Below, piece after piece: positions 1,073 to 28,323 of a stretch of DNA of 64,000 nt. A program made the position numbers and the translations under genes. The DNA lies in NCBI RefSeq assembly GCF_030756675.1, contig NZ_JAVBXD010000026.1, positions 1-64,000 on the forward strand, in the 5' to 3' direction. This stretch comes from Bacillus multifaciens. Its GTDB lineage: Bacteria; Bacillota; Bacilli; Bacillales; Bacillaceae_G. The notes under the pieces were generated by a model. That model saw nothing but the letters and a program-made list of their open reading frames with translations, was not told the DNA's origin and did no database searches. How positions within the stretch are numbered: the stretch's first letter is position 1; each line of letters begins with the position of its first letter.

Positions 1073-3286
1073 TTACATTTTATGTCCCCACTGGTCAAAG
1101 TGATAGTCTTTACCGTCGATTTTAAACCAACCGTCTGCATAAAGTGAACCATCTTCTCTAGCACAGTACCAAAGGTATCCGTATGCAAGAGGCCAAGGTC
1201 TATATCCACCACCAACTTGGAACCATCCTGTTTTTGCTGCCCCTTTCTCATCGAAGTAATAATATTTATTATCGATAGTTTGCCAACCCGTTTGTGCTAC
1301 GCCGTTATTGTCGAAATGGTATAGCTTACCGTCGATTTTTTCAAATCCTGCTCGGTTAACTGATCCGTCTCCATGAAAATAATATTTTTTTCCGTCAATG
1401 TTTTCATAAGCATTGAACGTGTAATTGCGACCATTTGTGAAATAATATCTTTTACCGTCTATCATTTTCCAACCGGTATAGAAAACTCCATCTTCTAAAC
1501 TATAATATTCTAGTAGGTTCTCACTTTTGTTGAGCCCCGTTTTATAAAGCGAACCGTCATGCTTAAATGATAATATTTTGTTGTCCAACCCAACATTAAC
1601 AACGCTGTCTATAACTTTTCCATTTAGATCAGAAACTCTCTCAAGCACACCTTTGTCAGAAACGTGAATAATTTTATTTTGATCTTCTAAGCGTATTTCC
1701 TTTTTATTTACCTCGTAATTTTGGAAGTAATAAATTTTACCATCTACTTCTTTTAGACCTTCTTTAACGATTGCTCCAGAAGCATCGGCATAGGAATCTC
1801 CATCCCAGGTTGATCGTTGTAAAACACCGTCATCATTAAAGTAGTAGTATTTATTCTCAATCAGTGAATCACTTCCACCTCCAGTAACCATGTAGCCATA
1901 AGGCGGTGAGAAATAATAAGTCTTCCCCTTAATTTCTTGCCAGCCTGTCAAAATGACTCCTTCAGCATCCGTAAAGGAATACCCACTACCTCGGTTTACC
2001 CAACTGTTCTTTATCACGTTTCCAGAGGAATCTTTTGCAATCCATTTCGTAGCATCTTTTTCATCAGCTACAGCCTGTACTTTATCATACTTCTGTCTCT
2101 CATTTTCTTTACCCGGATACCACTCTATTAACCAATTGTTAATTTCATTGTTGCTTTTACCAGGGAAGCCAATTTCAGATCGGAAACTCTGATCAGTATC
2201 GAACCCTGAAATATACAGATTACCACCTAAACTTACTCCATTTTTGTTATTCAAACGGAACTGAAATTTACCATCGTTAGAATTTCCTATCTGAACAAGT
2301 TCAAACACTTCATCATCGCCAAGCGAATCGGAATATTGAAGTCCGTTTCCTTCTTTTCCTGAAAGATATTTTGAACCTGTTTTTACGATTACTTTATTCG
2401 TTCCTTTTTTATAAGGGATAATTTGATAAGGTTTACCATCATTTAGTTTAATGAATGGCAGTTCCAGAGATGTCTCTATGACATTAGTACGCTCCGCCAA
2501 TACATCAGATAATCGATCATAAAAATCTGCACGAGCTTTAGGATCATTATTAACATAGTTGTCAAGGACATCTTTAGATACTGGCTTTGAAGTCAATGTT
2601 ACCAATCGTTTTTGCTCATCTGATAATTTATTTGCTATATAATCAAATAGGGTATCCTGACTATAAGTAATCACGTCCCAATCTGGAGTCCAAACGTCTG
2701 CATATTTTTTATAAAGTGGACTAAGTATTCTTGGGTTTTTACCAGATGCTTTTTCTACAAATCCAGTGTGATCTTGATTCATTACAACTCCGGTCTTTCC
2801 TTCGTTTAATTGTGCTTGTGTAATGTAAAGAAGATCGTGTTCTGAGATATTTGCTCCATTAGGATTTAAATCTATAATTGCTCCTGCGTCAGTAATTTTA
2901 AGCTGCTGCCCAGATTTTAGTTGATGATTTTCAATTCTTCCATTTGGATAGCGCACTTTAACTGACTTAGTAAAATTCATATCACCTTGTGTATGATACA
3001 TGGAAATATTAAATTCCCCAGATTTAAAATTAGGAGCCTGATAAGCTAGATTTTCTGCATATACATCAATGGTAGTGCTTGGTGCTATATCCCCTGGTTC
3101 TAGTCCAAGTGCTTCATAAGTGTTTGCTACAGCACCTAATACAGTAATAGTTATATCTAATACCGCACCTACCCCTGCGCTAGCCTTATTTTCTGCTACA
3201 GGAGCCATAGAAAAAAGAATACCTAGTGCTGCTGTTGCAGGGATTACCTTCTTCCCAATTCCATTTGTTTTAAATTTCTTTTTCAT
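1073..3286 (-). CDS. Secreted protein with C-terminal cell-wall-binding repeats
   Basis: A 737-residue exported protein. Residues 1-37 are a signal peptide (MKKKF..., hydrophobic core, cut near NKASA). Residues about 45-290 match no family I recognise. Residues about 295-390 look like a compact beta domain (PYQIIPYKKGTNK, SKYLSGKEGNGLQY). From about residue 415 to the end are roughly ten aromatic repeats of the type GWxxIDGKxYYF, the choline-/cell-wall-binding repeat family also found in clostridial toxins and pneumococcal surface proteins. The start follows GAGAGGAG with good spacing. Transcription probably starts near 3345 from a promoter carrying four 11-bp-spaced boxes, shared with the kinase gene next door. 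The repeats imply attachment to wall or host carbohydrate. An adhesin, lysin or toxin is possible; no catalytic motif was seen. Confidence 0.8.
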   Translation of the reverse strand: MKKKFKTNGIGKKVIPATAALGILFSMAPVAENKASAGVGAVLDITITVLGAVANTYEALGLEPGDIAPSTTIDVYAENLAYQAPNFKSGEFNISMYHTQGDMNFTKSVKVRYPNGRIENHQLKSGQQLKITDAGAIIDLNPNGANISEHDLLYITQAQLNEGKTGVVMNQDHTGFVEKASGKNPRILSPLYKKYADVWTPDWDVITYSQDTLFDYIANKLSDEQKRLVTLTSKPVSKDVLDNYVNNDPKARADFYDRLSDVLAERTNVIETSLELPFIKLNDGKPYQIIPYKKGTNKVIVKTGSKYLSGKEGNGLQYSDSLGDDEVFELVQIGNSNDGKFQFRLNNKNGVSLGGNLYISGFDTDQSFRSEIGFPGKSNNEINNWLIEWYPGKENERQKYDKVQAVADEKDATKWIAKDSSGNVIKNSWVNRGSGYSFTDAEGVILTGWQEIKGKTYYFSPPYGYMVTGGGSDSLIENKYYYFNDDGVLQRSTWDGDSYADASGAIVKEGLKEVDGKIYYFQNYEVNKKEIRLEDQNKIIHVSDKGVLERVSDLNGKVIDSVVNVGLDNKILSFKHDGSLYKTGLNKSENLLEYYSLEDGVFYTGWKMIDGKRYYFTNGRNYTFNAYENIDGKKYYFHGDGSVNRAGFEKIDGKLYHFDNNGVAQTGWQTIDNKYYYFDEKGAAKTGWFQVGGGYRPWPLAYGYLWYCAREDGSLYADGWFKIDGKDYHFDQWGHKM

Positions 3287-3351: not shown

Positions 3352-3406
3352 AGCATAGTTTAAAAACCTTTCAAAAGACTTTCGTAAATGTTACAAAAGT
3401 CTTTCA
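3352..3406 (-). promoter_or_regulatory. Promoter P1: four tandem 6-bp boxes plus -10 (secreted protein)
   Basis: Read on the minus strand, the boxes are TGAAAG (3406-3401), TGTAAC (3395-3390), CGAAAG (3384-3379) and TGAAAG (3373-3368). Each starts 11 bp after the last. Ten bases follow, then -10 TATGCT (3357-3352). An 11-bp period is typical of direct repeats bound by OmpR/PhoB-family regulators. No good -35 is present, which suggests activation. Confidence 0.7.
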
Positions 3407-3411
3407 TAACC

Positions 3412-4470
3412 TTATTTCTTTTCTGATGTAACAGGAAGAGTAAACCAAAATTCACTCCCTTGTTTACCGTCTGAACGATCTCGCACACCAATTTTGCCTT
3501 TGTGTATTTCAATTAATGATTGTGCAATGGCTAATCCAATTCCAGATCCCCCAGATTGTGAACCTCTTGAAGAATCCGTTCTAAAAAAGCGTTCAAATAT
3601 GCGTAGTTGATCACTGTAGGCAATTCCTTCTCCTTCATCACGCAAAATGAATTGAACGTGATGCTTCTGCTTATTTTCTTCTACAATTAATTCAATCGTC
3701 CCAGCCACTGGAGAATATCGAATTGCATTATGTAACAAATTACTGATAACCCGTGCTATCTTACAAGGCATAATCCAGAGCTTAGGCAATGTATCAGAAA
3801 CTTGTAATTGCAAATGGATCTGTTTTTCTTCTAATAAAATAGAATGTGAATCTAGTACTTCTAATAGAATACGATCCATATGTGTGAAACTCGGATAAAA
3901 ATCTTCTTGTCCAAGTTCTAACTTAGAAAGATCAAATAAGTCATTAATTAATCCACTTAATCGTTGTATTTCTTTATGGATTGTCGTTAAGTACTGCGTT
4001 TTCATTTCGGGATTTACAATTACATCATCTTGTAATGCTTCAATCATCAATTGTATGCTAGCCATAGGTGTTCGTAAGTCATGTGAAATATTCGCAATGA
4101 GCTCTGTACGTGCTTTTTCTCCTTCTTCTAATTTCGTAAACCCTTCTTTTAATTTTTTCGCCATTTGTTGAAAGGCTGTTGCTAATTCTTTAAATTCTTG
4201 TGGTCCTTGTCCAATTCTATACGTCGTCCCAAATTGTCTATCACTAAATTCTTTTGTTAATGCAATTAAATTTTGAATAGATTCCGTAATGGGGCGTGTT
4301 AATAGCCAATAAATAATCGTTGAAAACGCCATTGCTACGATTACAATTCCTATAAATAGTTGCGTTTGTTCCGGTTTAAGTAACATTTTCATTTCGCTAT
4401 ACCAAATAGCAACTAGCATAATGCTGGTGCTTAATATATTCATCAATAACAATTGATTTCGTAATTTCAT
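3412..4470 (-). CDS. Membrane sensor histidine kinase without adjacent regulator
   Basis: A 352-residue sensor kinase. There are two transmembrane helices (about 7-25 and 38-58) separated by only a dozen external residues, so the signal is probably sensed in or at the membrane. A HAMP-like linker (about 59-110) follows, then the HisKA domain with phosphoacceptor His130 in SHDLRTP, then the HATPase domain with N, G1 (DEGEGIA) and G2 (GSGIGLAIA) boxes. Such kinases normally sit beside an OmpR-family response-regulator gene, but none lies on either side. The gene has its own promoter, with boxes of the same design as those before the secreted-protein gene downstream. The pair may therefore form one regulon, with the regulator encoded elsewhere or lost. 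Confidence 0.88.
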   Translation of the reverse strand: MKLRNQLLLMNILSTSIMLVAIWYSEMKMLLKPEQTQLFIGIVIVAMAFSTIIYWLLTRPITESIQNLIALTKEFSDRQFGTTYRIGQGPQEFKELATAFQQMAKKLKEGFTKLEEGEKARTELIANISHDLRTPMASIQLMIEALQDDVIVNPEMKTQYLTTIHKEIQRLSGLINDLFDLSKLELGQEDFYPSFTHMDRILLEVLDSHSILLEEKQIHLQLQVSDTLPKLWIMPCKIARVISNLLHNAIRYSPVAGTIELIVEENKQKHHVQFILRDEGEGIAYSDQLRIFERFFRTDSSRGSQSGGSGIGLAIAQSLIEIHKGKIGVRDRSDGKQGSEFWFTLPVTSEKK

Positions 4471-4517
4471 ATTGTAGTTCCCCCTTGTTGTAACATAAAA
4501 CGAATATCAGTTAACAC

Positions 4518-4572
4518 ATCTTATCGTAAACACCTTTCAATTTTCTTTCAAAACTATAACAAATTTCTTTCA
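4518..4572 (-). promoter_or_regulatory. Promoter P2: four tandem 6-bp boxes plus -10 (histidine kinase)
   Basis: On the minus strand the boxes are TGAAAG (4572-4567), TGTTAT (4561-4556), TGAAAG (4550-4545) and TGAAAG (4539-4534). The period is 11 bp. Ten bases follow, then -10 TAAGAT (4523-4518). The spacing is the same as in the promoter at 3352-3406. The predicted start of transcription is about 40 bases before the kinase ATG. Confidence 0.7.
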
Positions 4573-4765
4573 AGAGTATCACTAAAGATTAAAAGGATGG
4601 ATTGAAATTGCGAAACTCACCTTAAACCAAAATTAAATTCATAGCATACCCACAGAAACCTTTTTTAAATTTATCGGTTTGAACACAGAAGGAATAGACA
4701 CATTATCGTTAATATGAATTAGAAACAGAAATTCACTTGTTTTTCTGTTATATGGATTAAGCCAA

Positions 4766-4842
4766 CGAAAGACTTTTGTAACAATTACGAAAGTCTTTTG
4801 TAATGCTTGTGAAAGGAATTTGAAAGATATTTAAAGTAAGAT
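4766..4842 (+). promoter_or_regulatory. Promoter P3: six tandem 6-bp boxes plus -10, facing right
   Basis: On the plus strand the boxes are CGAAAG (4766), TGTAAC (4777), CGAAAG (4788), TGTAAT (4799), TGAAAG (4810) and TGAAAG (4821), all with period 11. Ten bases follow, then -10 TAAGAT (4837-4842). The layout equals that of the promoters at 3352-3406 and 4518-4572, but it points away from the kinase into a stretch without an evident gene. Confidence 0.65.
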
Positions 4843-4848
4843 AAACTT

Positions 4849-5114
4849 ATTGCAAACACACATACGAACTACCTTATAAACTGTATATTTTATTTTTCTA
4901 ATGCAATTAAAATGCTGAATTTGATATTGAATCATTTTTTGAATTTTAAGCGATTTATGAGTTCCAAAATATATTTGGTACAATCATCTTTATTAAATGA
5001 AGAACAAATCGCCCAGATGTGTTAGAAAAATAAAATTAATCAAACCGAGCTTCCCCCAAGCTTCTTTTTTACACAACAAAACCCACAGAAAACAATCTGT
5101 GGGTTTTGTTGTGT
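4849..5114 (+). ncRNA. Candidate regulated small RNA
   Basis: A transcript from the promoter at 4766-4842 would begin near 4849 and reach a strong terminator at 5071-5114, about 265 nt. No frame in it has both a start codon and a ribosome-binding site. It may be a regulated small RNA or the leader of a lost gene. This rests on the promoter and terminator only. Confidence 0.3.
5071..5114. terminator. Strong, nearly symmetrical terminator hairpin
   Basis: Arms ACACAACAAAACCCACAGA and TCTGTGGGTTTTGTTGTGT around a short loop, followed on the plus strand by a T-rich tail. It may serve both strands, ending dbpA transcription from the right as well. Confidence 0.7.
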
Positions 5115-7163: not shown

Positions 7164-8606
7164 TTATACGCCCATACTAGAAGGAATCGATTTTCCTTCT
7201 TTTCTCTTTTTCTTTAAATCGTTCATACAATCATCTAATAAGACTTGAATGTTCTTCCATTGTTTTTTGGCTTGTGGGAAAGATAATTTTTTTGACTTCG
7301 TGACACATTTGGCTAAAAATGCACTGTACAAATCTCGTTGTGCTTTCATACCACACTCACAGGTATGCCAACGTTCTGATAGTTTTTTCTTTTTGACGTT
7401 TCCACAATGACAGGTTTGAGACAATTTCGTTGTCCTTGTAGGTATATCGATAAACGTACCGTTTCTTCGTTTTAATTTTTCTTTCACTAAATTTACAAAC
7501 ATCGCAGGTGCAGAACGCGCAACAGAACGACCATATAATTTCTGAAATGCTTTATACGATAACTTTTCAGATTTGATGATTTTTGCTTTTTCAATGATTC
7601 GATTACTATGGTAACCATGTAATGTTTTTCGTGTTGTAGTGATTTTACGTTCTATTTCTCGCAACTCTGCTAATGTTTTCTTCATTTGATTAGAAATGTG
7701 CCAACGTTTTCGTCCTTTTTTGATTGTGCCATTTTCATTGTAATATTGCGGATTGTTCGCACGTCTTTGACGATCTGATTTTCGTTGTAATTTACATTTT
7801 TCTTTATCCAAATTAGGAATACCTTCACAAAATGAACGAAGTTCCGCAAAAGAATCTGTTACAGTAGCGATTGTGGATGGCCCAATGTCGAAACCTGCTG
7901 TTTCATCGCCCATTTTGTATTTTTGATATGGATACCCTTCTAAAGTTAATTGAAGGTAAAAGACATCTTTTCCTTTGATGATACGTTTCACAATACGACA
8001 AAATTTCACGCGTTGTTGCAAAGCATGGTTTAACCATTTATCCTTATCACCTTTTGGGAATACACAAGGAATCGTATCCTTTCCCACCATCACATAACCA
8101 TTCGAATAGGTTAAAAAGGTTTTATTGCTTTTTCCTTCTAACGAAACAAATTCGCCTTTTCGTTTGAATTGTACACGCTTCGCTTTATGAAACGCTACTT
8201 TTTGAACAGCACGAAAAGCGCGAGTGGCAATTTTTTGACACACATGTGTTCCTAAATGGTACGCGATCATTTTGCTATCATTTTTTGTTTTCGTTCCGAA
8301 TGACTGAATGCTTGCATCGGTGAAACCAAACGTTTCGTTTAATTGTTTAAAGTTATCTTTTCGTTTTTCTTTGTCTTTGACTTTATCTAAAGCAATTGTT
8401 TCTTTATATAAATCTGTTTTTTTGATTTTTTGTAAACGTTTTAGAGATTCACCCAAACAAGCATTATATAGTAAACGACCCATTTCCCCTTTGACAAGAA
8501 GATTACGTGTTTGTTTTTTATTTGTACGCATACGAATATCGGCAATATAACTAGGTGTTTTTTCTTTTTTCTTTACTTTTTCTTCTGTTTGAGAGGAAAT
8601 GTTCAT
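7164..8606 (-). CDS. tnpB: TnpB, RNA-guided nuclease of the IS200/IS605 family
   Basis: A 480-residue TnpB (OrfB). TnpB family members are RNA-guided DNA nucleases, ancestors of Cas12, that promote retention of the element. RuvC residues can be seen: Asp240 in GFDIGPS, Glu347 in IIKSEKLSY and Asp425 in QRDLYSAF. The zinc ribbon has Cys399, Cys401, Cys416 and Cys418. The frame is uninterrupted and the catalytic triad complete, so the protein may be active. It lies 4 bp after tnpA. Confidence 0.92.
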   Translation of the reverse strand: MNISSQTEEKVKKKEKTPSYIADIRMRTNKKQTRNLLVKGEMGRLLYNACLGESLKRLQKIKKTDLYKETIALDKVKDKEKRKDNFKQLNETFGFTDASIQSFGTKTKNDSKMIAYHLGTHVCQKIATRAFRAVQKVAFHKAKRVQFKRKGEFVSLEGKSNKTFLTYSNGYVMVGKDTIPCVFPKGDKDKWLNHALQQRVKFCRIVKRIIKGKDVFYLQLTLEGYPYQKYKMGDETAGFDIGPSTIATVTDSFAELRSFCEGIPNLDKEKCKLQRKSDRQRRANNPQYYNENGTIKKGRKRWHISNQMKKTLAELREIERKITTTRKTLHGYHSNRIIEKAKIIKSEKLSYKAFQKLYGRSVARSAPAMFVNLVKEKLKRRNGTFIDIPTRTTKLSQTCHCGNVKKKKLSERWHTCECGMKAQRDLYSAFLAKCVTKSKKLSFPQAKKQWKNIQVLLDDCMNDLKKKRKEGKSIPSSMGV

Positions 8607-8610
8607 TTTT

Positions 8611-9015
8611 TTACACCCCTTTCTGATTTTCGATATATTGTTTTACTGTTTCTAACGTTGTTCCACCTACAGTGGAAACAAAATAGCTATTCGTCCATAA
8701 GCTTGGAATCCGGCTTTTTAATGATGGGTATTCTTGACGTAATAGACGAGAAGAAGCCCCTTTTAGATGACGAACAAACTTATTGATTCCGTATTGCGGG
8801 TCTACTTCTACTAATAAATGAACATGATCAGGCATGATTTCCATTTCGATAATTTCTGCTTCGATGGAATTTGCTGTTTCTAATAAAATAGTTTTCAACC
8901 TTTCATCTATTCCGTCTACCAATACAGGTCTTCGGTATTTCGGACACCAAACAATGTGATACTTGCAAGAATACACAACGTTATTATTACTTTTATATGT
9001 TTGATAAGTTTTCAT
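8611..9015 (-). CDS. tnpA: TnpA, Y1 HUH transposase (IS200/IS605)
   Basis: A 134-residue single-strand transposase that excises and inserts the element through a 5'-phosphotyrosine intermediate. The HUH motif is HVHLL (in MPDHVHLLVE). The catalytic tyrosine is in the C-terminal helix (VKQYIENQ). It keeps the normal length and the N-terminal CKYHIVWCPKYR block. It lies just upstream of tnpB and is probably co-transcribed with it. Confidence 0.93.
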   Translation of the reverse strand: MKTYQTYKSNNNVVYSCKYHIVWCPKYRRPVLVDGIDERLKTILLETANSIEAEIIEMEIMPDHVHLLVEVDPQYGINKFVRHLKGASSRLLRQEYPSLKSRIPSLWTNSYFVSTVGGTTLETVKQYIENQKGV

Positions 9016-25935: not shown

Positions 25936-28323
25936 TTAACGATGAATCCAAACTGCTCCTGCAGTCTTATCATCCGCTTGACCTACTACTTCAAACTTCA
26001 GTCCAAGCTTCGGAACTTTTCGTCCTGCATCTGGAATTAACGTGTTCATGTATACTTTAGAATCATCAAACTTCGCCACACCTGGTAATCCTTTATAATC
26101 AAATACTCCGCGTGATGGTGAATTTACTTTCCACGCTGGTGTTTGATCAAATGAGAACGCAGCATCTGCAATTTGATAACGCGTACTACTTTTCACAGAC
26201 GGCTGACCATTTAATGTTCCTACAATCGCTTCTGGATGAGAATCTACTACCCCAAGGAATCCTTCGCCTGGATGTACACCAACCCAGTTATCTGTAAAGC
26301 TTTGGTCTGCATACCATACAACAAGTCCTGTATTGTAGACTGGACCGCGTCCGTATTGCAACGCTTCATCAGAACCAGAATAGTTTCTCCACTCCAAATA
26401 GTAGTTATTTTTCTTATAGTCAATTCCATTAGAAACAGTAAAGCCTTTTAAAGTAAAGCTTGATTGCCCCTCTGCATCATCAGATAACACAACTTTACCA
26501 TCTACTGTTAAAGCCGCATTATCAAGTGCAAATCCTCTGTAAGCTACAGCAATATCTGTTAAATAGTCAAATTGTAGTTTTACTTTCTTGCCTTTGAATT
26601 GACTTAAATCATAAGATTTATCAATCCACTTATCATTTGTTGTATCGACACCATTCTTGATGTCTTTGTCACCCATTCTATCAAGCTTTGTTTTCGTTCC
26701 ATCTTCTGCAATCGCATATACATCAACGAAATCATATTTTGCTTCTAATTCATAGAATGCTTTGTAATCAAATTTTGCAGTCGTTGCATTTGTTAAATCG
26801 AATAATGGCGTTTCTAATGTTGTGTGGATGTCATTTCCTTTTGTACTATAGTAAAACTTCTGTCCAAAACCAGGTTCAATGTTTTTCACTTCTTTATCAG
26901 GTAAGTTCACACGAACAATTCCTGGACGTTTTGACTTCGTAACACTTTGATCTAAATACACTGCCGACCCGATACCACGAAGTTTATCATAGTCTACCTC
27001 AGTAATATTCGCCCAGTTACCCTTCATATTTTTTTGGAAGAACTCTTTATTTTGCGGAGAGAAACTTGTCGGTTCTGTTCCAGCAACTCTTCCAGCCCAG
27101 CTGCCGCCGCTCATAATAGACCAAGCTTCAACCGGCTCACCTTGTCCTGAATACTTTGTGTCGTACTCATCTGGTAAACCTAAATCATGACCGAATTCAT
27201 GAGCAAATACACCAACCGCACCGTCTTCAGGCTCAATTGTGTAATCATACGCAGCCATCTTTCCATCCCATCTTTGTACAGATGATTTCGTGCCATCAAT
27301 TGCATAAGGTTTTGCACCAAGTTTTGAACGGTGAGACCAAATTGCATTATCTTTCAACTTTCCACCGCCAGCTTCTTGACCAACACCAGCGTGAACAACC
27401 ATTAAATGATCAATAATTCCATCTGGCTCATTTTTATTGCCGTCACCATTGTAATCGTATTGATCAAACTGATCATAATCAGCTAAATTAATTCCCTTTT
27501 CCACTGCTGCTTTTAACGCGTCTTTTACTAAATCACGTGGCCCTAAAGGTCCTTTATTATCATGACCGCTACCAGCATCAGAACCGTAATCAGCTGCTTT
27601 ACCTGGAACAGTCAACCATTCTGTTACCGTACCGTCAACTGTATAGCTGCCGCCTGATTGCTCTTCATAATATTGCTTAAATGTTTTAATGTCCGTGCCA
27701 TTGAATAATGTAAACGGCTCATCCCCAAACAGCATATTTTGATAATGCTCACGATTAAAATCATTTGAATACATATATCCTTGTTCTTGATCAATATTGT
27801 TATGTTTAAAATCACTATATTCTACAAGAAGCACAAGAACTTTATCTTTGCGCACAGAACCATTATAATGTGCTTGCTTCGCTGAAGAAGTTGGCACTTT
27901 CCCATTTAGCTTTCCAGAATTTAATCCAGGTACTTGTCCATTTCCTGCACCATTCTCTTTTTGATTCTGCTGCTCTTTCTCTTTCATCTTTTCATCTTTT
28001 ACTTTTTTCATAAAGTCAGTAGCTTCTTGCGTAAGGCTGTCTTCTGGCGTTGTTTCCTTTCCAGGATTTTCGCCTTTCTTCTTCTCTATATATTTCTCTA
28101 CAGCCTTTGCCGTTTCTGCTTGTGATGCAGAAGAATCAATAACCCCGCGTTCCTTCAACGCATTTGCCAAGCGATCCTCCGGTATTAAATGCTCATCTAT
28201 GAAACTAGATGACGCTGATGGTGATTCTGCATAAGCAGCATGATCACCGAAAGCAAACATAGAACTTAGCATAGCCCCAGTTGCCAACACTGAAAAAGTT
28301 TTTAATTTTCTGTTCTTTTTCAA
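25936..28323 (-). CDS. inhA: Immune inhibitor A-type M6 metalloprotease
   Basis: A 795-residue secreted zinc protease. The signal peptide ends near AAYA (residue 32). A propeptide with an acidic, Lys-rich segment covers about 33-150. The zinc motif is His375-Glu-Phe-Gly-His379 in [15 protein letters not shown], with the distal met-turn [10 protein letters not shown]. The C-terminal half carries a jelly-roll-like domain ([17 protein letters not shown]) and a VEG-like domain. InhA proteases cleave host antimicrobial peptides and matrix proteins. Which of the InhA paralogues this is cannot be settled here. No PlcR box (TATGNAN4TNCATA) was seen upstream. It is bracketed by two copies of repeat family R. 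Confidence 0.93.

Follow-up and report, generated by a model that had tools for sequence, protein, structure and literature searches.

Arrays of 11-bp-spaced boxes at three promoters around a histidine kinase gene of Bacillus multifaciens: putative sites for the regulator of a possible envelope-oxidation sensor family in Bacilli

The window analysed here, a stretch of 64,000 nucleotides (64 kb) from Bacillus multifaciens, contains three promoters built on tandem boxes with an 11-bp period, all of them close to the gene for a sensor histidine kinase. We consider it probable, at roughly 0.7, that these arrays are putative tandem sites for the OmpR-family regulator that accompanies this kinase family in other Bacilli, that the family senses oxidative damage in the envelope and that the system has been rearranged in the window. 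A fuller account is more tentative, and we would put it a little short of an even bet: that this is an undescribed envelope-oxidation two-component system of Bacilli, an analogue of HprSR of Escherichia coli rather than a member of that family, which senses through one methionine in a loop of about 10 residues and drives Msr enzymes and sacrificial methionine-rich proteins from a conserved four-box promoter with no −35 element, the window copy having become separated from its regulator and having acquired a cell-wall-binding secreted protein as its target.

The three promoters had been pointed out in an earlier note on this DNA, and they hold up in every detail. The first array (3352..3406, minus strand, boxes and −10 element together) serves the gene for the secreted protein, and consists of TGAAAG (3406-3401), TGTAAC (3395-3390), CGAAAG (3384-3379) and TGAAAG (3373-3368), followed after 10 bp by the −10 element TATGCT (3357-3352); its first box begins 5 bp past the kinase stop codon. 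The kinase promoter (4518..4572, minus) has TGAAAG (4572-4567), TGTTAT (4561-4556), TGAAAG (4550-4545) and TGAAAG (4539-4534), then 10 bp and TAAGAT (4523-4518). The third array (4766..4842, plus) faces right, with CGAAAG at 4766, TGTAAC at 4777, CGAAAG at 4788, TGTAAT at 4799, TGAAAG at 4810 and TGAAAG at 4821-4826, and again 10 bp and TAAGAT (4837-4842). Box numbers are four, four and six, the period is exactly 11 bp, and the gap from last box to a −10 of the form TANNNT is 10 bp in all three. Runs of at least three boxes at this spacing occur nowhere else on either strand of the 64 kb, and 100 simulated (first-order) windows gave a mean of 0.01 such runs, and 0 runs of at least four. An ordinary −35 element is absent from all three promoters, as the hexamer 17 bp upstream of the −10 matches TTGACA at only 0/6, 2/6 and 2/6 positions; the proposal that these are direct repeats of the OmpR/PhoB type in activator-type promoters is borne out to that extent.

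The arrays before the secreted-protein gene and facing right have a 34-bp stretch in common (97% identity) and, with the kinase gene between them, make up an inverted repeat. The idea of transposon ends to which this gave rise was rejected, since the arrays carry −10 elements and recur beside the kinase family. The same two arrays each contain an internal near-palindrome (13/14 and 14/16 pairs, respectively), which is lacking from the kinase array; it lies within the first three boxes (3401-3372 and 4771-4800), and its centre is the same in an array of Marinithermofilum (L001 391-445). In a check of 16 relatives' arrays, the latter had 13/16 pairs at this window-like place, and palindromes elsewhere in the array were found in L062 (9/11) and L034 (8/10). 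The exact sequence shared by the two window arrays was not found in viral contigs.

The kinase itself (352 aa; 3412..4470, minus) has HAMP, HisKA and HATPase_c domains above the Pfam cut-offs, and alignment shows the H, N, G1, F and G2 motifs all in place, so that it is intact. By eye, the alignment also suggests two hydrophobic segments separated by a very short outer loop, in which Met29 sits; such a layout may be that of an intramembrane-sensing histidine kinase, with two membrane helices. A methionine is present in this loop in all 21 family rows of the alignment, the window protein included, and is missing from three outgroup rows, which were cut to their last 370 aa and are perhaps not comparable at the loop. 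The window kinase is 51–52% identical to its best relatives (39–52% across relatives in other Bacilli), and its sister in the tree, with support of 99/98, is the kinase of genome G356 (L012), which belongs to an operon of the order msrA-msrB-Pyr_redox-VTT-RR-HK (RR, response regulator; HK, histidine kinase). It is, then, an intact member of a Bacilli RR–HK family with Msr-type neighbours. Relatives were found in 16/398 Bacilli genomes at E<=1e-70 and, at E<=1e-75, in 10/397 genomes of the order that contains G756 (the nearest genome to the window by glpK among those searched, at 87% identity). The kinase was not found in viral contigs; 32 phage records matched it, the best 10 of the 32 being at most 35% identical, and five Priestia plasmids carry an RR–HK pair with a kinase 40.8% identical. 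None of the matches listed from the open-licence literature is a publication describing this Bacilli kinase family.

Which protein might read the boxes? The kinase had been called an orphan, and this remains true of the window, where tblastn gave no response regulator match in the 64 kb even at E<=10; for want of a tblastn match, the remnant of a deleted regulator was likewise rejected, both between array and kinase and beyond the array that faces right. It is not true of the family. In the first 18 loci (among which L033 and L034 are near-identical plasmids), a full-length OmpR-family regulator is encoded next to the kinase in 15; in two more it is cut off by the edge of the locus, and one locus is at a contig end. 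The full-length regulators are 55–77% identical to that of Marinithermofilum. In a later set of 28 loci (which includes the short contigs L061 and L068, and the near-duplicates L082/L083 and L065/L071/L090/L091), 27 have the regulator gene on the kinase gene's strand and within 4.5 kb of it; L068, the exception, lies at the end of a contig.

The relatives' loci also have arrays of the window's kind. A matrix made from the 14 window boxes alone, excluding the −10, was run on 15 relatives' loci (40 shuffles each) and 37 comparison loci (20 shuffles each); that the window arrays themselves top this matrix carries no weight, as it was derived from them. It exceeded all 40 shuffles in 9/15 loci, in eight of them at arrays and in L058 at another site, and exceeded 20 shuffles in 0/37 comparison loci; it did no better than shuffles in L060, L064, L065, L068, L069 and L071. 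Eight of the 15 best matches have a TANNNT downstream at a distance of exactly 10 bp from the fourth box (three of these eight, in L060, L065 and L071, being among those not exceeding shuffles), and in L059, L066 and L067 it is a fifth box that is followed by a TANNNT at 10 bp. A strict pattern (four YGWAA boxes, 10 bp and TANNNT, with at most three mismatches), picked after the relatives' arrays had been viewed, gave 15 matches in 10/15 family loci, none in the 37 comparison loci and none in the window from position 5001 on. When periods from 8 to 14 were tried it matched at 11 only, and the 10-bp gap gave 15 matches versus 2–6 at gaps of 4–9 and 11–16. On nine held-out Bacillales loci it found none.

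A whole-promoter matrix, covering boxes, spacers and −10, was built from 20 training arrays, with the L069 row one box out of register. In five of the nine held-out loci it exceeded all 100 shuffles, and in two more it was equalled once in 100; no array was found by it in L085 and L089. All seven of these held-out arrays are shortly upstream of a DM13 or RR gene, and the position 10 bp on is occupied by TANNNT in five and by GATTAT in two. Three loci that score as arrays with this matrix (L070, L055 and L056) had been listed as controls here and in the two comparisons above, yet belong to the wider family (their kinases are 39% identical), and L070 has RR, DM13 and MsrA/B genes as well; with these removed, 3/34 controls exceed 20 shuffles, versus 1 to 2 expected, in a comparison where family loci had 40 or 100 shuffles and most control loci were shorter. 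Two simpler searches told less than the box matrix: a scan for strict window-type boxes in the 18 loci examined first yielded one pair and not a single run of three, and a generic score of self-similarity over three boxes, applied to the DNA upstream of 14 RR genes, picked out no relative, even the window arrays not exceeding simulations. The array of the sister genome G356 is weak, and with the window matrix it does not rise above simulations.

Boxes in the rest of the family are mostly YGTAAG or YGTAAT. Free drift of boxes or spacing, which the earlier note had set against its own proposal, is seen in the box letters, which vary from species to species, but the arrays keep returning to a period of 11 bp and a gap of 10 bp. 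They recur also in position: at the kinase gene's 3′ end or directly past it in L001, L059, L061, L062, L063, L066 and L067, which is the window's arrangement too; before the regulator-containing operon in L001, L034, L058 (the weak array), L060, L065, L066, L067 and L069; and divergent from that operon in L064. TGAAAG, which the earlier note could not assign to any regulator, can now be assigned to that of the kinase family, because the regulator is present in 27/28 loci and RR–HK pairs have promoters of this architecture beside them.

The neighbours point to what such a regulator might control. They were identified by Pfam and NCBIfam scans of chosen proteins (10 + 10 and 8) and by phmmer within 4.5 kb over the 28 loci. 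MsrA together with MsrB is encoded in 12/28 loci and an MsrP-like protein in nine others, together 21/28 (a count with no matched background of other kinase loci). The remaining loci have DM13 (L069, L082, L083), hydroxyisourate hydrolase (L034, in a plasmid-borne hiuH-RR-HK operon of Priestia) or a methionine-rich protein (L061, L064, L065). The genes named next, like those for DM13 in L069 and for the hydrolase in L034, stand behind an array or share its operon. In G356 (L058 9604-14795, minus) the weak array is followed by msrA, msrB, Pyr_redox, VTT, RR and HK genes. The MsrP-like molybdoproteins have MsrP as their best NCBIfam match, at 123 and 102 bits versus a cut-off of 207, and are accompanied by cytochrome b561 or have an N-terminal extension which, to the eye, seems to be membrane-bound. 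Small methionine-rich lipoproteins are encoded in L001, L059, L061 and L062, and methionine-rich Cu_amine_oxidN1 proteins in L065 (20% Met) and L066 (15%) and, by likeness without a domain scan, in L067 and L071; L064 has a methionine-rich secreted protein with no Pfam match. A script flagged methionine-rich proteins in 22/28 loci, by a loose rule that lets in frames that are not genes; the methionine-rich proteins named here were instead picked by reading the loci.

Some features of particular loci may be mentioned here. The G356 operon, with an exported MsrA and a lipoprotein-like MsrB, resembles a complete extracytoplasmic methionine-repair module. In L066 (7247-8596, plus) and L067 (9890-11221, minus) an MsrP-like molybdoprotein with an N-terminal extension of about 280 residues is encoded between RR and HK. 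DM13 proteins are found near RR–HK pairs in the Bacillales loci L069, L070, L081, L082, L083, L085 and L087, those of L082 and L085 being 9–10% methionine, and DM13 might have some connection with methionine oxidation.

HprS of E. coli has a periplasmic domain, in the place of which the Bacilli kinases have their short loop. HprSR (YedVW) is an OmpR-type pair that induces hiuH-msrPQ (PMC9302797), and HprS is reportedly activated through methionine oxidation (PMC13367049). The likeness is that the relatives carry MsrP-like or MsrA/B genes and, in Priestia, that for hydroxyisourate hydrolase too. There are several differences: the relatives' regulators fall below the HprR family cut-off (166.2 bits in Marinithermofilum and 157 in Priestia, versus 353); the Bacilli arrays are direct repeats, whereas the HprSR box is the palindromic CATTACAAAATTGTAATG (PMC9302797); and the Bacilli family adds MsrA/MsrB and methionine-rich proteins, with the window copy having no Msr genes. 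A second comparison is with OrhK/OrhR of uropathogenic E. coli, which, according to PMC8550376, activates an MsrPQ-like pair, the methionine-rich peptide C3568 and the secreted protein hemolysin. There, too, repair and an unrelated secreted protein are under one sensor, but the organism is Gram-negative and the regulator is present. By analogy, the window's family may be a functional counterpart of HprSR and OrhKR in the defence of envelope methionine.

The promoters themselves are best compared with those of PhoB. In these the pho box stands in for the −35 element at a distance of 10 bp from the −10; the Bacilli arrays would occupy the same place. The pho box, too, is made of 11-bp direct repeats, of 7+4 bp (PMC2648988), but the Bacilli boxes have another sequence, number four or more and belong with another regulator. 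On this model, oxidation in or at the membrane would be sensed by the kinase, perhaps at the one invariant methionine of its short loop, and phosphorylated regulator dimers would align head to tail on the four (or six) 11-bp boxes. The last box, ending 10 bp short of the −10, would substitute for the −35 element, and the regulator would there recruit RNA polymerase, turning on repair (MsrA/MsrB, MsrP-like) together with sacrificial methionine-rich and redox surface proteins. Since the kinase gene has its own array, autoregulation is predicted. If this is right, a previously unassigned TGAAAG motif gains an owner and a likely purpose, and the family would point to a Gram-positive counterpart of HprSR and OrhKR; and, with box, spacing and −10 defined, candidate regulons of the family should be readable from Bacilli genomes.

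How does the window fit this scheme? No match to MsrA, MsrB or hydroxyisourate hydrolase was found in it at E<=1, and MsrP-like and DM13 proteins gave only weak matches (E 0.53–0.89). The slot 3′ of the kinase gene, which in seven relatives is taken by methionine-rich or MsrP-like genes, is here taken by the gene for a secreted, wall-binding protein of 737 aa (1073..3286, minus; signal peptide by eye; Pfam Choline_bind_3 and Choline_bind_1), in which an N-terminal part of about 440 aa is followed by choline-binding/cell-wall-binding repeats. This protein is not methionine-rich (8 Met/737). For residues 1-438 there was no PDB match at E<=1, nor were relatives of the N-terminal part found in viral contigs, and the predicted structure of these 438 aa was set aside (pLDDT 41.5). 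Four plasmid records match the protein, in the C-terminal repeats only (query 430-731). We suppose that it occupies the target slot, and that the regulator is supplied from elsewhere in the genome or has recently been lost, so that in the window copy the sensor may have lost its tie to repair and gained a new surface protein as its output. The earlier suggestion of a single regulon of kinase, secreted protein and third transcript keeps its plausibility under one regulator. Behind the right-facing array no credible gene was seen, there being only a 37-codon ORF with no ribosome-binding site, and no gene remnant was found there; a strong terminator-like stem lies beyond it, at about 5071-5114. 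The right-facing array may once have served as promoter for a gene since lost or moved.

Somewhat unlikely, in our estimation, is that the cognate regulator has been lost for good, and that what remains, kinase and arrays alike, is left over from a transferred island, with promoters now silent or read by another OmpR-family protein. The want of a regulator in 64 kb speaks for this, as do the nearby resolvase gene and the sparseness of kinase relatives (at E<=1e-60, in 0/13 genomes of the genus of G756 and in 1/19 of its family, the 13 being included in the 19). Long decay is hard to square, however, with an intact kinase and with the exact period and gap that all three arrays have kept; and the regulator search extends only rightward, 64 kb from base 1.

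Of equal standing, and so also improbable, is the suggestion that the family and its sites are as we propose but that the signal is copper or another metal, the methionine-rich proteins being there to bind copper. Two of those proteins do contain the Cu_amine_oxidN1 domain (those of L065 and L066), and hiuH-msrPQ of E. coli is also induced by copper, via CusSR (PMC9302797). On the other side, MsrA/MsrB or MsrP-like genes accompany three-quarters of the loci (the 21/28 above), and no copper pump or chaperone was named by the Pfam scan among 20 chosen neighbour proteins. An oxidative signal is still the one that we prefer.

There is far less to be said for the idea that the boxes serve WalR, PhoP or some other resident OmpR-family regulator and have nothing to do with the kinase, which we regard as very improbable. 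The earlier note had remarked on a likeness to the WalR box, and TGTAAC, TGTAAT and TGTTAT each fit the half-site TGTWAH (PMC9210968), and the period is the same. Moreover, WalK is the closest NCBIfam model to the window kinase and WalR the closest regulator model to the Marinithermofilum RR, but the scores are far below both cut-offs (220.8 bits versus 725, and 249.4 versus 340), and the neighbours are other than those of WalRK. The likeness to the box goes no further than single half-sites: there are 0 TGTWAH-N5-TGTWAH pairs on either strand of the window. WalR was rejected on this form of the site and on the pairing of the arrays with the kinase family, PhoP on that pairing, and a resident regulator in general is disfavoured by the lack of any match to TGAAAG-N5-TGAAAG-N10-TANNNT in 13 genomes of one related genus. 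Least probable of all, if by a narrow step, is that the near-palindrome in two of the window arrays is the functional operator and the 11-bp period a consequence of it, for although it has the same centre in both, and in L001 391, and the E. coli HprR/CusR box is palindromic (PMC9302797), it is absent from the kinase array, only L001 391 among the 16 relatives' arrays is as strong, and it is period and gap that recur among those arrays.

Finally, some observations concern the rest of the window. At its left end (324-890, plus) there is a gene for a resolvase-family recombinase, and positions 312-910 are 88.5% identical to a recombinase-gene stretch on a 217-kb Bacillus arachidis plasmid; together these suggest a mobile region at the left end of the window. 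The secreted protein bears no likeness to the RICIN-domain protein encoded next to a related plasmid resolvase. To the right of the arrays, at 7164-9015 (minus), two adjacent frames resemble by eye an IS200/IS605-type pair (134-aa TnpA-like and 480-aa TnpB-like), and the translation of 25936-28323 (minus), also judged by eye, is of a secreted metalloprotease resembling immune inhibitor A.
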